Of a stretch of 64,000 bases of DNA, positions 5,652 to 41,956 are shown one piece after another (positions within the stretch are counted from its first letter, which is position 1; every line of letters begins with the position of its first letter). A program made the position numbers and the translations under genes. Source of the stretch: Erythrobacteraceae bacterium (GTDB taxonomy: Bacteria > Pseudomonadota > Alphaproteobacteria > Sphingomonadales > Sphingomonadaceae). The notes under the pieces were generated by a model. That model ran no database searches. It was not told where the DNA came from and saw only the letters and a list, made by a program, of their open reading frames with translations. The stretch covers positions 1 to 64,000 of the forward strand of contig CANJYE010000006.1 of the NCBI GenBank assembly GCA_947479055.1. Direction: 5' to 3'.

Positions 5652-6522
5652 TTACTTGTGGCCGGGTCCGCCGCCCGAGAAGGCATCGGCAATTGAACAG
5701 GCTGCCGGACCGAGAATGACGATGAACAGTGTTGGCAGGATGAACAGGATCAGCGGAACGGTCATGATCGCCGGCAACCGCGCGGCCTTTTCCTCGGCGC
5801 GCATCATGCGCTCATTGCGGAATTCGGCCGAGAGCACACGTAGGGCCGAAGCGAGCGGTGTCCCATAGCGCTCGGTCTGGATCATCGTAGTCACCACCCC
5901 TTTCACCGCTTCGAGATCGACGCGATAGGCGAGGTTGTCGAACGCCTGCCTGCGTTCGGTGAGGAACGACAGTTCGATCGAGGTCAGCGCGAACTCGTCA
6001 CCCAGTTCGGGATAGGCCCGGCCCAGTTCCTTGGCGCAGCGGTTGAAGGCGGCGTCCACCGTAAGGCCGGCCTCGGCGCAGATCACCAGCAGATCGAGCG
6101 CATCGGGCAGGCCCTTGCGGATTTCGTGGGTGCGCTTGGAAATCAGGTTGGAAAGAAAGATGTCGGGCGCCTTGTACCCCAGGCCCAGCATCACGGCAAA
6201 TGCCGCCAGGCGTTTCATGCCGCCCCAGGTCGGGAACATGTCGCTCCAGTAGAACAGCGCCATCGCTGTCAGACCCATCACGATCGGCAGGACCATCCGC
6301 GCAAAGATGACCGCGACCGCCCATTCCTTGTTGCGGATGCCGGCCTGCGCCAGCTTCTGCTGGGCAGCTTTGACCTGGCTGTCCTGAAGGACCTACAACC
6401 CTTGCAGGGTGTCCTTCATCTTGTCGGTCGCTTCGTTGTTGCGAAGGAGGCTGGTGCGCTTCTTTGCGCTGGCCTTGACAATTCCGGCCTTGAGTTCTTC
6501 GCGGCGCTCGTTGAGCGCTTTA
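5652..6522 (-). pseudogene. tadC: tadC-like pilus platform gene, 5' end deleted and interrupted by an amber stop
   Basis: Encodes a T2SS-F-type inner-membrane platform protein of the Tad/Flp pilus. The reading frame with family-like sequence runs from KALNERREEL (about 6520) to the stop at 5652. It is interrupted by TAG at 6393-6395 between TLQGL and VLQDSQVKAA; both flanks are in the same frame, so one base change explains the break. Downstream sequence is normal for TadC: GLPDALDLLVICAEAGLTVD, ERYGTPLASALR and two C-terminal membrane segments (LILFILPTLFIVIL). The usual N-terminal membrane anchor is missing; the gene joins tadB near 6520. An ATG at 6296 could start a 214-aa product lacking the N-terminal third. 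Mutation versus assembly error cannot be separated here. Confidence 0.75.
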
Positions 6523-6901
6523 TCACGCCGATCCCCAGCGACAGCAGCGCGGCGCCAGAACGCAAATAGATCAACACGGCAATGCCCAGGGCAAGGCCCA
6601 GCGAAACATAGAAATACTGCATCACGGTCCAGGGCTTGCCGGTCCGGTCGAGTCGCAGTGCGAGGGCTTCGATGCGCGAACTTGAGCCGGCTATCCGATG
6701 GCCTTTGGGTTTGCGCGCAGCCACTGCCTTGCGCAGCTGGGCCTCGACCCTGTCCTTCGTGCTGTCGGAATGGCGTTCGCGCAGCCCCTGCAGACGCCGC
6801 GCGCCTTCCTTGACCGGCGACGGACCCGAGAGGGCGGCATAACCCATGACCATCATGGCCATGAGTCCTGCACCAAAGAGCAGAATCTGCACAATGCTCA
6901 T
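6416..6901 (-). pseudogene. tadB: tadB-like pilus platform gene, C-terminal half lost by fusion to tadC
   Basis: The first ~130 residues look like the TadB N-terminus: an N-terminal membrane segment (IVQILLFGAGLMAMMVMGYA), a basic linker, and a second hydrophobic stretch (LGLALGIAVLIYL...LLSLGIGVI). After GVI the frame turns into low-complexity Ser/Arg/Ala sequence (KRSTSAAKNSRPELS) and stops at 6416. In another frame the same bases encode the tadC-like KALNERREELKAGIVKAS, so the tadB frame has run out of frame into tadC. The conserved T2SS-F domain of TadB (about 190 residues) is absent. TadB proteins are normally about 320 aa; this frame is 161 aa and is probably non-functional. Confidence 0.75.
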
Positions 6902-6966: not shown

Positions 6967-8250
6967 TCACTGCGCTGGTGCGGGCGTCTTGGATTTCTTC
7001 GTGATCATTGCCTTGAGATCGAGCTTGCCCAGTAGCGATGCCCTGGCGGGCTTGACGGGTTCTGCTTCGGTCTCTCCGGCACCTGACCCGATGATCTGAT
7101 CGGCGAGGCTGCGAATGACCGCGCTGGCCTTGCTCGAACGATTGGCATCGACGAACACCTGACCCAGCTTAGCCGCATTGGTCGCGGACTTGAGGTCGTA
7201 AGGCACCAGGTAGTCAATCTTGCGTTCGATCGAAGCCTCGAAGTCGGCCCTGCTGATCTCTGCCACGCCGGTCAGGAACTTGTTGCCGACCACGATGGGC
7301 CGGGCGTGGCCGGCGTTGGCCTTGAGCCAGGAAAGGATCCGGATCGAATCCCGGGCCGAGGCGAGGGTCATCTCGGTGGCTAGAACTACAACGTTCACAT
7401 CTGCGAGCAGGTGCGGGAAATTGATCAGCATGTTCCGGGGAAGGTCGATGACCGTCATTTCGAAGGCGTGACGGAATTCTTCTTCCAACTGGACGAAGGC
7501 AGAACCGTCGGTCATCAACGGCGCGCTGATTGGAGCTTCGGCGGACAGTATCGACAGATTGTCGTTTGCCCGGATCATCGCGCGTTCGATGAACAGGCCG
7601 TCGATGCGGCTCGGATTGTCGATTGCGTCAGTCAGGCCACGACCCGGCTCGAGATCGAGCGCCAGTGCGCCTGTCCCGAAATGGACGTCGAGATCGAGCA
7701 GTGCGGTCGGCATCCGGTGATCGGAACTGAACAGCCAGGCGAGCGAAGTGGCCAGGGTCGAAGCGCCCACGCCCCCGCGCGTCCCCACCACTGCGGTGGA
7801 GATGTGCTTTTTTGGCGCAGCTGCGTCAGAAGTCTTTGGCGAAGCAAAGACCAATTGGGCCTGGGTCAGCGCATCGCGCAATTGCCCGGCCGAAATCGGC
7901 TTGAGCAGATAGTCGTGAATGCCGCTGCCCAAAAGATCGCGGTAAAGGCGCACATCGTTGACCTGACCGATCGCGATCACCACCGTGCCGGGCTCGCACA
8001 CCTCGGCCAGGGCGTTGATGTCGTTGAGCGGATCGCCGCTCTCCGACAAGTCGACCAGCAGGATGTTCGGGCTTGCCGCGATCGAGAGCGACTGGACGGC
8101 GTTGCGAAGCCCCCCCTTGGCGCATTTTTCGGGCGGCCAGCCCATTTCGACTGATACCGGGCGCAGCACGTCGAGCGTGTTGTCATCACAGACAAAAGCA
8201 GCGAAGGGATCTCGATTGCCGGAAGCTCCGGGTTTCCAGGGCGCGTTCAT
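6967..8250 (-). CDS. cpaE: Tad pilus assembly ATPase-like protein CpaE/TadZ
   Basis: ParA/MinD-like protein that positions the Tad pilus machine at the pole. The 427-aa product has a receiver-like N-terminal domain (about residues 15-135, with ILLVDLSES and DYLLKPISAGQLRDAL). A deviant Walker A P-loop follows, GTRGGVGASTLA (about residues 157-168), with LLDLDVHFGTGALAL and a VIDLPRN segment after it. Length and domain order are normal, so this gene looks intact although its partners do not. It starts 3 bases after cpaD. Only 65 bases separate its stop from tadB, where cpaF/tadA would normally lie. Confidence 0.9.
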   Translation of the reverse strand: MNAPWKPGASGNRDPFAAFVCDDNTLDVLRPVSVEMGWPPEKCAKGGLRNAVQSLSIAASPNILLVDLSESGDPLNDINALAEVCEPGTVVIAIGQVNDVRLYRDLLGSGIHDYLLKPISAGQLRDALTQAQLVFASPKTSDAAAPKKHISTAVVGTRGGVGASTLATSLAWLFSSDHRMPTALLDLDVHFGTGALALDLEPGRGLTDAIDNPSRIDGLFIERAMIRANDNLSILSAEAPISAPLMTDGSAFVQLEEEFRHAFEMTVIDLPRNMLINFPHLLADVNVVVLATEMTLASARDSIRILSWLKANAGHARPIVVGNKFLTGVAEISRADFEASIERKIDYLVPYDLKSATNAAKLGQVFVDANRSSKASAVIRSLADQIIGSGAGETEAEPVKPARASLLGKLDLKAMITKKSKTPAPAQ

Positions 8251-8253
8251 GGT

Positions 8254-8925
8254 TCAGTTACCCCCACTGCTGCTGTCAGTCTTGTTGTCCTTCAGGCCCT
8301 TTTCGCCGGTCGGCTGAGCCTTGCGATAGCTGCTGATGGCCTTGTTGGAGCTCATCACCACCGTAGTGTCGTCCGAGCCCTTCGCACCGTGGATCAGGTG
8401 TTCCGGGTTCGCGACCATCGCTGCCAGGTTGCCGTTGATGGCGCAGCCATAGCCGGACGAGGTCTTGTTTCCGAGGTTTGAGGCCTTCGTGTCGGACCAG
8501 TTGGGGCAATCGGGCACTTCGGCCGAGGCGCGGGTTATCACGACGCGGATCTTGCCCGGATCGACATAGCCCGGTGTAACCGGAGCGCCATCGCTGACCA
8601 GAATGCCGTAACGCTCGGCAATGGCCGAAACCGCCTGGTGAGTGGCAGGGCTGGTCAGAGGATCATCGATCGCGATACGATCACCGTAGCGCAGGTCCAT
8701 CGCTTCGAACCATCCGGCCAGCCGGCGCTGTTCCGGGATCGAAAGCCCGCCCGATCCGCTGACCAGGTCGAGTGTGAAATTGGACTGCGTCACGATCGGC
8801 TGGTTGACGCTTTCGAGCGAGCGGTTCTCGGTGACCGACCCGGCCCCGCCGGCGCAGCCAGCCAGCGACAGACCCAGCGAAAGGGCGATGGCGGCGGCAA
8901 TCGGCTTGTTCATGCAATTCGGCAT
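8254..8925 (-). CDS. cpaD: Tad pilus lipoprotein CpaD
   Basis: Pilus-biogenesis lipoprotein of the CpaD family, thought to work with the CpaC secretin at the outer membrane. I chose the ATG at 8925 (MPNCMNKPIAAA) because AAGGTG sits 6 bases upstream; an in-frame GTG at 8943 overlaps the cpaC stop, and an ATG at 8913 is also possible. The signal peptide ends in a lipobox, LSLAGCAGG. The body has RLAGWFEAMDLRYGDRI, VRVVITRASAEVPDCPNWS and GYGCAINGNLAAMVANPEHL, all familiar in CpaD. The C-terminus is Ser/Gly-rich. It appears intact. Confidence 0.87.
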   Translation of the reverse strand: MPNCMNKPIAAAIALSLGLSLAGCAGGAGSVTENRSLESVNQPIVTQSNFTLDLVSGSGGLSIPEQRRLAGWFEAMDLRYGDRIAIDDPLTSPATHQAVSAIAERYGILVSDGAPVTPGYVDPGKIRVVITRASAEVPDCPNWSDTKASNLGNKTSSGYGCAINGNLAAMVANPEHLIHGAKGSDDTTVVMSSNKAISSYRKAQPTGEKGLKDNKTDSSSGGN

Positions 8926-8939
8926 CTTGGTCACCTTTC

Positions 8940-10571
8940 TCACTTGAGGCTGAAGCCGGGGACGGGAGCGGAAGTCACTTCGGCGCGCCTTTCTTCCTTG
9001 CGGGCCTTCTTCGACTTGCGATCATTGTCCGGGGAAGGCAGCGCAGCAGGCTGATCGAGCGAACCGACCTTCGGCTGCTGATCTTCTGACGGCGCCGCTC
9101 TCGGCATCGGGCGGTCCTTGCCGCTTTCACCGTCGGATTCGGCATTCCCGAAGAACTGCTGGAATGCCGTCGGAGCACGGAAGCCGTCGGTTGGCAGCTT
9201 GATGTCGTTCGCATCCACCGGATTGACCAGATAGGGCGTCACAATGATCACCAGCTCGGTCTGGCCCTTGCGGAATTCCGTGGACTTGAACAGATTGCCC
9301 AGGATTGGCAGGTCGCCGGCACCCGGTGTCTTGTCGATCGTGTTCTGCGCATTGTTGCTCATCAGCCCGGCGATCATGAAGCTCTGACCGGAACCGAGTT
9401 CGATCGTCGTTTCAGCCCGGCGCACGGTCAGCGCCGGAACCTGGAAGCCGTTGAGCGTCACCGCGCCCTGGCTCGAAAGCTCGGACACTTCGGGGCGGAC
9501 GCGCATCGAAATGCGGCCATTGGCAAGCACGGTCGGCGTATAGGAAAGACTGACGCCGAACTTCTTGTACTGGATCGAGGTGCTGCCAAGGCCCTGGCTC
9601 ATCGGGATCGGAAATTCGCCACCGGCCAGGAAATCTGCGGTTTCGCCAGACAGGGCAGTCAGATTGGGCTGGGACAGCGTCGTCACCAGGCCCTGCCGCT
9701 CGGCAAGGTCCAGCGCGCCTAGCAGGTCAAGGCCGAGGAAATGTCCGGCAATGCCGAGCGTCGTTCCAGGAGAAATCGGGATAATCCCGGAGCCAGTCCC
9801 GTTCTTCGTCGGGTAATTCCCGAATGCGTCCGGCTGCTTGCTGAAGTCAGGGACCTGGATATTGGGAGAGTTACCGACCCCCAGCGTCTGGTTCGGCCCG
9901 ACATAGAAGTTCGGCGACCAGCCTTGGCGGCCTTGTCCGATACCGGCCTGAAGGCCGCTGGATCCATCCATGCTGGTCAGGTTCGACCCCAGCGCCCGCA
10001 CCAGCGAGCGGCTGACTTCGGCGAATTTCACTTGCAGGTTCACCTGCAGCGGGGTCGACATCTTCAGGCGGCTGATGATGTTGGCCTTGTCACCAAGGAA
10101 GGCCTGCACCAGTCGTTCCACCTCGGCGCCATCTTCCGGCGCGGCGATGGTGCCCGTCAGTAGTACGGTGTTGGTGCCCATGGTCGAAACACTGACCTTG
10201 GCGTCAGGCATCGCCATATTCAGCATCTGGTCGATGCTGTCGATGTTCGATCCGACCCGCAGATTGGCTGACCAGATCACGTTGCCGGAGGCATCGCTGG
10301 CGTAAACGGTCGTCTCGCCTGCCGATTTGCCGAAGACATAAACCTGATGCTGCGACTTGACCTGGACATCGGCGATCTCGTCGTTCGCGACGAAAATGTC
10401 CGACATCCTGCCTGGCACCGACACCAGCTCGCCGCGCCCGGTCGACAGGACGACCTGCTGCTTGGGCTCGGAGACCGACTGGGCCTGGGCCGCGCTGGCG
10501 AAGGTCAGCGCTGTCGGCACTACGGCGCAGGCCGCAGCAGACAGGAGAGTAGTGATAAGGCGGCGTGTCAT
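8940..10571 (-). CDS. cpaC: Tad pilus secretin CpaC/RcpA
   Basis: Outer-membrane secretin through which the Flp pilus would exit. I chose the ATG at 10571 because it follows AGGGG and starts a signal peptide (MTRRLITTLLSAAACAVVP...ASAAQAQS); a frame back to 10637 lacks one. The mature protein has an N-terminal pilus-assembly domain (VVLSTGRGELVSVPGRMSDI) and a BON-like segment. The secretin core follows at about residues 200-470, with NLTALSGETADFLAGGEFPIP, VRPEVSEL and GDLPILGNLFKS. It ends in a charged tail. About 543 aa, normal length, no visible damage. Confidence 0.92.
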   Translation of the reverse strand: MTRRLITTLLSAAACAVVPTALTFASAAQAQSVSEPKQQVVLSTGRGELVSVPGRMSDIFVANDEIADVQVKSQHQVYVFGKSAGETTVYASDASGNVIWSANLRVGSNIDSIDQMLNMAMPDAKVSVSTMGTNTVLLTGTIAAPEDGAEVERLVQAFLGDKANIISRLKMSTPLQVNLQVKFAEVSRSLVRALGSNLTSMDGSSGLQAGIGQGRQGWSPNFYVGPNQTLGVGNSPNIQVPDFSKQPDAFGNYPTKNGTGSGIIPISPGTTLGIAGHFLGLDLLGALDLAERQGLVTTLSQPNLTALSGETADFLAGGEFPIPMSQGLGSTSIQYKKFGVSLSYTPTVLANGRISMRVRPEVSELSSQGAVTLNGFQVPALTVRRAETTIELGSGQSFMIAGLMSNNAQNTIDKTPGAGDLPILGNLFKSTEFRKGQTELVIIVTPYLVNPVDANDIKLPTDGFRAPTAFQQFFGNAESDGESGKDRPMPRAAPSEDQQPKVGSLDQPAALPSPDNDRKSKKARKEERRAEVTSAPVPGFSLK

Positions 10572-10638
10572 GCGTGTGCCCCTGGTTTGCGTCGTCGCGT
10601 TGCGGTGAGCAGCGGTATTTTGTGCACGGCGGTCCATC

Positions 10639-11658
10639 TCACTTCGCTCCGATCGAGACGATGGTGGTGTTCTTGCCGCGCGTCACCCGGACGCTCGGGC
10701 CAAGATCCTTGGGGGCTGCGGCAACGCCAGCCCCACCCGAAGGTGCAGCCCCACCGGCCCCACCGCCGCCGCCGCCGCCATTGCCCTGGCTGGGTACCGA
10801 GGTGCGCTGGAAGCGGGACACGTCGCCGCCGGTGACATAGGTCTCGGCCTTGTCCTGCGGGCGGGTCATCGCGGCGCGCATCGCCTTTTCCTCGTCTTCG
10901 TGGGTGGCGCCTTCGGGCAGCTGCACTTCGCCAGCGGCAATTGCGCGTTCCAGTTCGGACTGGTTGTCGGCGATCGAGCGCAGCGAAAGGCTGAGCGTGC
11001 CGATGGTCTGGGCCACCGCGATCTTTTCGGCGATCTTCGGCGTCACTTCGAGCGTGACAGTGCTGAACTTCTTGACCTTGGTCTTGCCGTCCACCGTGGT
11101 GCTTTCAGTCGACTGGTCAGTCGCCAGCACGCGGATGTTGCGCAGGATCGTTTCGGCAGCCTTCAGTGACGGGCCATCGCCCTTGACCGTCTGGGTCAGG
11201 ACGATGTCGACCCGGTCACCCGGGAAGATGAAGCCTGCAACACCGGTCTTGGCCGAAGTCGGGATCGTCACGGCGCGCATGCCAGGTCCGAGCGCGGCGG
11301 CAAGGAAGCCACGATCGCCCGGCGCGACCAGCGCGCCCTGGGTGATGGGCTCGCCCGCCGTGATCGGATAACGCACGACGGTGCCAAGCAGCTTGTCCAT
11401 GCTGGCTTCGCCTTCAAGGAAGTAGGCGTTGTCGACCATGTCCTTGGGCTACATCTGGAACTTCAGCGCGTCGGCAGTGATGATCGTGCCCACAGGTAGC
11501 GCGCGCTGGCTGACGAGGACCTTGGGGCCCTTCATTTCCCGCGCCTTGGCATCGGCTTCCGGGGTCGATGCGCCCGCGAACATGCTCCGCGCTGCCATCG
11601 CCGTACCGATCGCGATGATCAGCGCTCCAAGCAGCAGAACCAGTTTCTTCTTGTCCAT
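10639..11658 (-). pseudogene. cpaB: cpaB (Flp pilus assembly protein), split by an in-frame amber stop
   Basis: CpaB/RcpC is a periplasmic Tad component with SAF domains. The gene opens at 11658 (MDKKKLVLLLGALIIAIGTA, signal anchor) and reads through a SAF-like segment (VLVSQRALPVGTIITADALK) to TAG at 11449-11451. The same frame continues at once with PKDMVDNAYFLEGEAS and LLGTVVRYPITAGEPIT to the stop at 10639, ending in a Gly-rich region. No base is gained or lost. In relatives I remember, the residue after KFQM is Trp, so TGG to TAG is the simplest explanation. A second start near 11439 would lack the membrane anchor. Confidence 0.8.
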
Positions 11659-11732: not shown

Positions 11733-12227
11733 TCACCCCGCCAACGCCGCTCCTCTTGCGAATGCCGGCCAGTATTGCGCTCCCAGCGCCCAGAGCCCGG
11801 CGAAGGCAATCGCCACGCCATAAGGAACTGCCAGTCTGTCCTTGCGCTTGCGGAAATAGTGCCACCCGGCCAGCACCAGCGTAAGCACCCCTCCGGCCAG
11901 CGCCATGACCATTAGCAGGCGCAGGAACCACAGCGGCTTTATCCAGAGGGCCAGCGCGGTAAGGAGCTTCACATCGCCACCGCCCATCAGCCGGAAGGCA
12001 AACAGGCAAAGCATGACGAGAAAGGCGGCCACGGCCACGCCGACGTGAATCGCCACGCCCGGCCAGAGATGCGCGCCGCTCGCCCACCAGAAAAGCGGTG
12101 CTCCGGCAGCGATTGCCGCATTCAGCCAATTGTCGATCTCGCGCCGACGAATGTCGGTGTACGCGGCGAACGCCAGGGCGATCGCGAGTCCCGCCAGAAG
12201 ATAATAGTGGAAAAAACCGCCTTGCAT
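11733..12227 (-). CDS. cpaA: Prepilin peptidase CpaA/TadV
   Basis: Integral membrane aspartyl protease that trims the Flp prepilin leader. The 164-aa protein has the two catalytic Asp motifs of the family: YTDIRRREIDNWLN after the first membrane helix and the GxGD-type GGGDVKLL near residue 85. Five to six hydrophobic segments are visible. It is the first gene of the Tad locus here, 74 bases ahead of cpaB. No flp pilin gene lies next to it, so the pilin substrate, if any remains, is elsewhere. Confidence 0.88.
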   Translation of the reverse strand: MQGGFFHYYLLAGLAIALAFAAYTDIRRREIDNWLNAAIAAGAPLFWWASGAHLWPGVAIHVGVAVAAFLVMLCLFAFRLMGGGDVKLLTALALWIKPLWFLRLLMVMALAGGVLTLVLAGWHYFRKRKDRLAVPYGVAIAFAGLWALGAQYWPAFARGAALAG

Positions 12228-22804: not shown

Positions 22805-22931
22805 CTGGAAAGCGCGCTACTTATTCCCTACATAGGTTGCTTGAGCCCCCCGTCCTGATCGTTTCCCGCTAGGTTGCGGGAAATCCGGCCATCGCCGGGC
22901 AGGGCGTGCCGGATTGAAGGAGTGTTGTTCG

Positions 22932-23168
22932 ATGGGTCTGTCGCTTCCCCACCTGATTGTACTTGCGCTGGTGGTGCTGGTGCTGTTCGGCCGCGGTCGT
23001 ATCTCCGAGATGATGGGAGATTTCGGTAAAGGTATCAAGAGCTTCAAGCAAGGAATGGCCGACGAGACGACTGAACGCCAGGTCACGCCCCCGCCTGCCC
23101 AGATCAACCCGCCCGAAGGCAGTGCCGCGCCATCCGCGAGCGAGACCACGCGCAACGGCCAGCCATAA
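22932..23168 (+). CDS. tatA: Twin-arginine translocase subunit TatA
   Basis: Small pore-forming component of the Tat export system. The 78-aa protein starts [20 protein letters not shown] (one membrane helix), followed by the hinge [21 protein letters not shown], an amphipathic helix with the FGRGRI variant of the usual FG-K/R motif, and a disordered Pro/Ser tail. The ATG at 22932 follows AAGGAG 9 bases upstream. It opens the tatABC operon, 127 bases after scpB. Confidence 0.95.
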
Positions 23169-23189
23169 GGCAAACCGGGAAACCGACCG

Positions 23190-23567
23190 ATGTTCGACGT
23201 CGGTGCATCCGAACTGTTGCTGACAGTGATCGTCGCGATCGTCGTGATCGGGCCGAAGGACCTGCCTTTGGCGCTGCGCACCGCAGGGCGCTGGATCGGC
23301 AAGATCCGCCGCGTATCCGGCCATTTTCGCGCAGGCATCGAAACCATGATCCGCGAGGCGGAGCTGGCTGAGCTGGAAAAGGAATGGAAGGAACGCAACG
23401 CCCGGATCATGGCCGGGGATCACGCCGGTGATCATGGGGCGCAGATGGTTCCGCTCGATCTCGTCCCCGAAGCCGGGGCAGAGGCGCGCGTTGCACCCAC
23501 TCCTGCCCAATCCCCGCCCGCTCCATCCAGCAATGAAGACGGGGGCGGTCCGCCGCCGCCGCCCTGA
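23190..23567 (+). CDS. tatB: Twin-arginine translocase subunit TatB
   Basis: TatB forms the substrate receptor with TatC. The 125-aa protein starts MFDVGASELLLTVIVAIVVI, with the conserved E in the membrane helix and the GPKDLPLALRTAGRWIGKIR hinge, followed by an amphipathic helix and a Pro-rich C-terminus. It is shorter than enterobacterial TatB but typical of alphaproteobacteria. It lies 21 bases after tatA and 9 bases before tatC. Confidence 0.95.
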   Translation: MFDVGASELLLTVIVAIVVIGPKDLPLALRTAGRWIGKIRRVSGHFRAGIETMIREAELAELEKEWKERNARIMAGDHAGDHGAQMVPLDLVPEAGAEARVAPTPAQSPPAPSSNEDGGGPPPPP

Positions 23568-23576
23568 GCGCCCGCC

Positions 23577-24389
23577 ATGGCCTTCAAGCTCCCCGATCTC
23601 GACGAATCCCAGGCACCGCTGCTCGACCATCTGATCGAGTTGCGCACCCGCCTGCTGCGCTCGCTGGCCGCGTTCGGGCTCGCTTTTGCCGTCTGCCTCT
23701 ATTTCGCCGAGGACATCTTCGGTTTCCTTGTCCGCCCGTTGACGGCGGCCTTTCCGCATGGTGAAGGGCGGCTGATCTACACCAAGCTTTACGAAGCCTT
23801 CTTCGTGGAGATCAAGGTGGCGCTGTTCGCGGCCTTCTTCGTCAGCTTCCCGGTAATCGCCAACCAACTGTGGGCCTTCGTTGCACCCGGGCTTTATGCG
23901 CGGGAAAAGCGCGCTTTCCTGCCGTTCCTGATCGCCACGCCGGTGCTGTTCACTTCGGGCGCGACCTTGGCCTATTACGTGGTGATGCCCACCGCCTTCC
24001 GCTGGTTCCTGGGGTTCGAGGGGATGCGCGGCGGGCTGAAGCTGGAAGCGCTGCCGGGGACGAGCGATTATCTGTCGCTGGTCATGCAGTTCATCCTCGC
24101 GTTCGGCTTCAGCTTCCTGCTGCCGGTGCTGCTGCTGCTGCTCAACCGGGCAGGGCTGGTCAGCCGGGCGCAGTTTGCCGGTGCCCGGCGCTATGCCATC
24201 GTGGCGATCTTCGCAGTGGCGGCGATCATCACCCCGCCGGACGTGGTCTCGCAACTGATGCTGGCCGTCCCCCTGCTGGTGCTGTTCGAGGGTTCGCTGC
24301 TGCTGATGTGGTTCAGCGAGAAGCGGCAGGCGCAGGACCAGCCGGAGCCGGATCTGGAGCAGCCGGAACAGTCGCAACCTCCTGTGTAG
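23577..24389 (+). CDS. tatC: Twin-arginine translocase subunit TatC
   Basis: Core six-helix membrane receptor for Tat signal peptides. The 270-aa sequence has PLLDHLIELRTRLLRSL at the N-terminus, then FFVSFPVIANQLWAFVAPGLYAREKR (conserved FxxP region and the GLY-x-x-E-K-R loop), further membrane helices, and AVAAIITPPDVVSQLMLAVPLLVLFE near the end. The C-terminal cytoplasmic tail is rich in Gln, Glu and Pro. Its last 77 bases overlap the 3' end of the convergent amidohydrolase-like gene. Confidence 0.96.
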   Translation: MAFKLPDLDESQAPLLDHLIELRTRLLRSLAAFGLAFAVCLYFAEDIFGFLVRPLTAAFPHGEGRLIYTKLYEAFFVEIKVALFAAFFVSFPVIANQLWAFVAPGLYAREKRAFLPFLIATPVLFTSGATLAYYVVMPTAFRWFLGFEGMRGGLKLEALPGTSDYLSLVMQFILAFGFSFLLPVLLLLLNRAGLVSRAQFAGARRYAIVAIFAVAAIITPPDVVSQLMLAVPLLVLFEGSLLLMWFSEKRQAQDQPEPDLEQPEQSQPPV

Positions 24390-41289: not shown

Positions 41290-41338
41290 GGGGCCTCGCG
41301 ATAGGGGAAGTGTTGCCGACTGCCAAGGAGCCGCAACG

Positions 41339-41629
41339 ATGGCCATTCCCCACCTCAGTGATGCCGAACGCGCTGCCGCCCTGGCCGGACTGCCGCAATG
41401 GCAGCTGCGCGCCGACGGGCTGGCGATCACCCGGACCTTCCGCTTCGCCGATTTCAGCGAGGCCTTCGCCTTCATGACCCGCGTTGCCCTGCTGGCCGAG
41501 GCGCAGGACCATCATCCCGAATGGTTCAACGTCTGGAACAGGGTGGAAATCACGCTCACCACCCATGATGCGGGCGGGATTTCGGCGAGGGATGTGAAGA
41601 TGGCACGGGAAATTAACAAGTTGGCTTGA
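41339..41629 (+). CDS. Pterin-4a-carbinolamine dehydratase
   Basis: Dehydrates 4a-hydroxy-tetrahydrobiopterin, recycling the cofactor of phenylalanine hydroxylase. The 96-aa protein has the diagnostic [24 protein letters not shown] stretch with the catalytic His pair (residues 58-59) and a third His in TTHD. No phenylalanine hydroxylase gene is nearby, so a partner must be elsewhere, or the protein has a moonlighting role as in other bacteria. Confidence 0.93.
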
Positions 41630-41653
41630 TGGAGTGGCTTGCTGATTTTGGGT

Positions 41654-41956
41654 ATGGGGATGGAATTGGCCGGGATGTCTCTTTTCATCGGCTGCATTGC
41701 GGCGCTGATAATCATCAACCTGTGGACGATGCTGCGTTTCTGGCAGGACAAGGCATGGGCCAGACAAGGCGAACGGCGCATTCCGGAAGCTGATCTGCTG
41801 GGACTGGCGATAATTGGCGGCACACCCGGCGCGCTGCTGGCGCGCCATCTGTTCCGGCACAAGACGCGCAAGCAGCCCTTTTCGACCTATCTCTACCTGA
41901 TCGGCGTCGTGCAGTTGGGTCTGGTGGTGGGCATTTTCGTGCCGGTCGATCTCTGA
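41654..41956 (+). CDS. DUF1294 membrane protein
   Basis: About 100 aa with two or three membrane helices (MSLFIGCIAALIIINLWTML, LGLAIIGGTPGALLA, YLYLIGVVQLGLVVGIFV). Between them is the DUF1294 core: D-K-x-x-A, then RRIPEADLLGLAIIGGTPGA and HKTRKQPF. Function unknown. Several in-frame starts exist (TTG 41639, ATG 41654, 41660, 41675); I give 41654. It follows the dehydratase by 24 bases and converges on the glycosylase gene. Confidence 0.78.
   Translation: MGMELAGMSLFIGCIAALIIINLWTMLRFWQDKAWARQGERRIPEADLLGLAIIGGTPGALLARHLFRHKTRKQPFSTYLYLIGVVQLGLVVGIFVPVDL

Follow-up and report, generated by a model that had tools for sequence, protein, structure and literature searches.

Probable recent decay of a Tad (Flp) pilus operon in a draft Erythrobacteraceae genome

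The window, meaning the whole stretch of 64,000 nucleotides analyzed here, covers positions 1 to 64,000 of an 89.6 kb contig (C6). The draft genome has 94 contigs, is 3.03 Mb in length and about 95% complete, and is the sole representative of its genus among the genomes searched. The minus strand of the window carries cpaA, cpaB, cpaC, cpaD, cpaE, tadB, and tadC. An MTAP-type gene comes next, on the plus strand. A search for promoter and terminator patterns near the tadB-tadC junction and for tRNAs in the window yielded nothing informative.

Several genes of the operon are open frames on the minus strand, each with a Pfam or homologue match. These are the prepilin peptidase gene cpaA (tadV; 11733 to 12227, PF01478), the secretin gene cpaC (rcpA; 8940 to 10637, PF00263 and PF13629), cpaD (8254 to 8943, PF09476), and cpaE (tadZ; 6967 to 8250). 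The last has a weak ParA/CbiA match and aligns by tblastn over nearly its full length with relatives, mostly at 71–80% identity. The genes tadB, tadC, and cpaB are interrupted.

The tadB (cpaG) frame begins with the ATG at 6901 on the minus strand and translates as MSIVQ...LLSLGIGVI. It is normal over 127 codons, runs into tadC sequence in the wrong frame at 6522/6521, and continues as KRSTSAAKNS... to a stop at 6416–6418. This 5’ remnant (6522 to 6901) matches the 323-residue TadB of relatives in frame. By comparison with them, residues 1–127 of 323 are retained and residues ~128–323 are missing. In intact TadB the T2SSF domain lies at residues 156–280 (loci L033 and L037), so the whole domain falls within the missing stretch; a Pfam search of the remnant returned no match.

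The overlapping tadC (cpaH) frame translates as KALNERREELKAGIVKAS...DTLQGL*VLQDSQVK, where the asterisk is a TAG codon at 6393–6395. The portion 5’ of this stop (6396 to 6521, minus strand) corresponds to residues ~49–90 and shows 52–75% tblastn identity to relatives. TadC lacks its first ~48 residues, and with them the first hydrophobic (membrane) segment. The portion 3’ of the stop (5652 to 6392, minus strand) is open for 246 codons, retains the T2SSF domain (PF00482, E = 1.5e-18), and is 82–85% identical to the best relatives. The initial annotation had described tadC as having neither a start nor a membrane anchor. The first membrane segment is indeed gone, but an internal ATG exists at 6296 and opens a frame of 214 amino acids that includes the T2SSF domain.

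A set of 80 loci (Novosphingobium, Croceicoccus, Aurantiacibacter, and others) was retrieved using the tadC part 3’ of the stop as the query, and the retrieval is therefore not biased toward intact upstream sequence. The genes tadB and tadC are separate in all 79 relatives that have both, and the compact arrangement, looked for as a possible normal form of the locus, occurs in none of the 79. Nine relatives were translated in full; in these TadB is 323 amino acids long and TadC is uninterrupted. Stops appear in the alignments of a few relatives and, where recurrent, were checked and found at the C-terminal ends.

Between the TadB ATG and the TadC codon that matches KALN lie 380 bp here and 1125–1144 bp (mode 1135) in the 79 relatives. 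This difference in spacing gives a missing length of ~755 bp (745–764) at the junction (6521 to 6522, minus strand). The initial annotation had read tadB as normal up to LSLGIGVI and then as tadC in the wrong frame, with about 190 TadB residues, the TadC N-terminus, and a segment of ~0.7 kb absent. The translations and the relatives agree with the frame change, the missing residues are those given above, and the spacing comes close to the proposed length. In intact relatives just a few bp are common to both sides of the breakpoint. With so little in common, neither a long direct repeat nor the collapse of k-mers during assembly seems to account for the join.

The premature TAG was also reported earlier as interrupting tadC in frame, and the translation agrees. 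The site is a sense codon in all 80 relatives, where it encodes Lys (68), Arg (7), Gln (3), Ser (1), or Asn (1), and never a stop.

A third lesion, absent from the initial annotation, lies in cpaB (rcpC; 10639 to 11658, minus strand). The gene is split by a TAG at 11449–11451, at codon 70, and the same frame is open on both sides; the RcpC domain (PF16976) is found in 10642–11448. The site is Trp in 72 of the 72 relatives aligned there. Each of the three lesions is absent from the 72–80 relatives aligned at its site.

Both premature stops are TAG, which would suit a reading in which this codon is decoded as an amino acid or suppressed and full cpaB and tadC products are made. The sites are Trp in cpaB and Lys in tadC, and TAG serves as a normal stop codon in this genome, where it ends 79 of 468 coding segments. 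Read-through would also leave the deletion unrepaired. Reassignment of the code was rejected on the first two of these points, and read-through of either kind seems highly improbable.

To sample the background of broken genes, 490 kb of the same genome was scanned by codon usage, which gave 477 coding segments. The scan is a coarse one. The tadB-tadC join went unnoticed in its first version and was picked up by the second, and a small frameshift close to the end of a gene could escape detection. Neighboring segments in the same frame were judged by eye to be nearly all ordinary gene pairs in which the second gene starts a few codons past the stop of the first. Two such candidates for broken genes in the window, at 22845–24386 and 41297–41953, were rejected, being tatA-tatB-tatC and a PCD gene with a DUF1294 gene, respectively. 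The remaining ~470 coding segments, outside the operon, contained 2–4 frameshifts. The assembly is therefore not riddled with errors, yet it is not free of frameshifts.

The individual cases are as follows. A TMEM175-type gene (C1:29195–29795, minus strand) seems frameshifted; its first part covers profile positions 1–63 of 88, and the rest is apparently in another frame. A serine recombinase gene (C3, L153:3252–4930) is frameshifted, the reading frame changing between the Resolvase domain and the end of the Recombinase domain. The Pfam matches of both genes are consistent with a frameshift. A hydrolase-like gene (C13, L165:16815–17374) beside an acyl-carrier-type protein is a likely frameshift, although neither part has a Pfam match. 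The hflX gene (C5, L157:11026–12387, minus strand), located 3’ of an hfq-like gene, lacks an ATG, GTG, or TTG close to where its open frame begins, possibly owing to an indel or an unusual start codon.

Judged by inspection, and apart from the tadC stop, the cpaB TAG is the one nonsense candidate in the 490 kb sampled that interrupts a single gene. The chance of such a candidate landing in this seven-gene operon, among ~470 segments, is about 1.5–2%. Since the locus was picked for its other two lesions, the independent cpaB stop is the fairest test.

These counts bear on the reading that the genes are intact in the organism and that the draft contains a misjoin and two base errors. The genome is a draft of 94 contigs, and the few other frameshifts in the sampled contigs fit such a reading. 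It would need three errors, not all of one type, to fall in a single operon, two as base changes creating TAG, while lesions are few elsewhere in the 490 kb. The join is also collinear, and the few bp common at the breakpoint in intact relatives are too little for collapse by a k-mer assembler. Three lesions in one operon against 2–4 frameshifts among ~470 other segments favors decay. Sequence error is thus an unlikely explanation, though one that keeps some weight.

The age of the lesions was approached through the surviving fragments. Measured against 50 relatives, both the tad proteins of the window and the MTAP control show distances within the normal range (ranks 17–43 of 51), although relatives were ranked by tadC similarity and the tadC distances are biased downward. 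The ratio of changes at codon positions 1 and 2 to those at position 3 is ordinary. Neither these distances nor the codon-position rates against the 50 relatives gave a signal of relaxed selection. With two nonsense changes among 2100 codons, the neutral change implied is ~76–87 substitutions, or 1.2–1.4% per site, too little to show at the distance of a genus and consistent with recent decay. As the fragments are normally constrained, two readings fit, recent decay and sequence error, since intact genes with errors would likewise look fully constrained; the rate test does not tell them apart.

The remaining Tad components were searched for in the draft. The CpaF/TadA ATPase is intact on contig C61, is 510 amino acids long, and is up to 90% identical to that of relatives. 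In close relatives cpaF also lies away from the cpa/tad operon. A second deletion removing cpaF from between cpaE and tadB was considered and rejected, because relatives have no cpaF there and the gene is intact on C61. A search of the genome for a second TadB or TadC found none in the ~95% complete draft, although another Tad system could lie in a gap. Apart from the window, T2SSF matches in the draft are limited to two domains of one protein, the T2SS protein GspF on contig C22, adjoining a GspE-type ATPase. Where both platform proteins, TadB and TadC, would have a full T2SSF domain in an intact system, only that of TadC remains, and CpaB/RcpC is interrupted at codon 70.

The Flp pilin was not found in the draft, where its usual flanking genes are missing too. 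In relatives two pilin genes lie between accA-M48 peptidase and mutT-folE, and orthologues of none of these four flanking genes were found in the whole draft. The accA gene is essential. Its absence together with its neighbors makes an assembly gap probable, and most likely the four genes and the pilin block fall in one such gap. The missing pilin is consequently no evidence of loss, and pilin loss as a fourth lesion was rejected as uninformative. A pilin gene missing from a draft may more generally reflect an assembly gap rather than loss.

Another reading is that a compact platform works with reduced parts, translation restarting in tadC (ATG at 6296, 214 amino acids with T2SSF) and in cpaB (ATG at 11439). 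Open frames still cover the T2SSF domain of TadC and the RcpC domain of CpaB, and some actinobacterial Tad systems have no TadC (PMC6668835). What is retained includes neither the first membrane segment of TadC nor the T2SSF domain of TadB, and the N-terminus of CpaB is lacking as well. The form is seen in no relative, and no sign of selection for a new arrangement was seen. Such restarts yielding a working machine would be very improbable. A reduced Tad-type machine whose platform is one truncated TadC-like protein, the T2SSF domain of TadB being absent, is likewise very improbable.

The locus is best read, with a probability of roughly three in four, as a Tad (Flp) pilus operon in which ordinary gene decay has recently set in. 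The lesions are real in the assembly, and we infer that they are present in the organism’s own DNA. A deletion of ~755 bp would have cost TadB its T2SSF domain and TadC its first membrane segment, leaving tadB and tadC in different frames. The stops in tadC and cpaB would be independent nonsense mutations, arising earlier or later than the deletion. Without the inner-membrane platform of TadB and TadC, the CpaF motor would be uncoupled and Tad pili, most likely, could not be assembled. The initial annotation had proposed that two independent lesions reflect a real loss of pilus function and not one sequencing slip. At the level of sequence that proposal appears well founded, given the absence of the compact form from relatives, the third lesion in cpaB, and the lack of a second TadB or TadC in the draft.

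This is a known kind of event and not a new system. The locus may serve as a clean example of early pilus loss, having three inactivating lesions while the other operon genes are open and constrained. If confirmed, it would mean that the lineage recently gave up attachment by Tad pili. Among 59 genomes, five, including incomplete drafts, have no TadC match at all and may have lost Tad pili likewise. Within the paper library and the terms searched, no published decayed tad operon came up, and the passages retrieved from two papers describe none.

Chromosomal cpaB-cpaC-cpaD-cpaE-tadB-tadC operons of Sphingomonadaceae/Erythrobacteraceae, such as those of Croceicoccus estronivorus (L037) and a Novosphingobium sp. 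MAG (L033), resemble the one described here in gene order and spacing and likewise have cpaF elsewhere. An MTAP-type gene lies directly 3’ of tadC in L033, L035, and L037, as it does here, and the proteins of these operons are roughly 60–85% identical to those here. The TadB/TadC pair originated by gene fission (PMC6668835), and the two proteins are thought to form one platform moved by the CpaF motor (PMC11300603). The Caulobacter platform of CpaG and CpaH (TadB and TadC) and its CpaF motor (PMC11300603) belong to the same protein families as the proteins here, where CpaF is intact on another contig. Unlike in the Caulobacter Tad pilus, the platform pair here cannot be made in full. The genes tadB, tadC, and cpaB are full-length in the Sphingomonadaceae/Erythrobacteraceae relatives, whereas all three are broken here.
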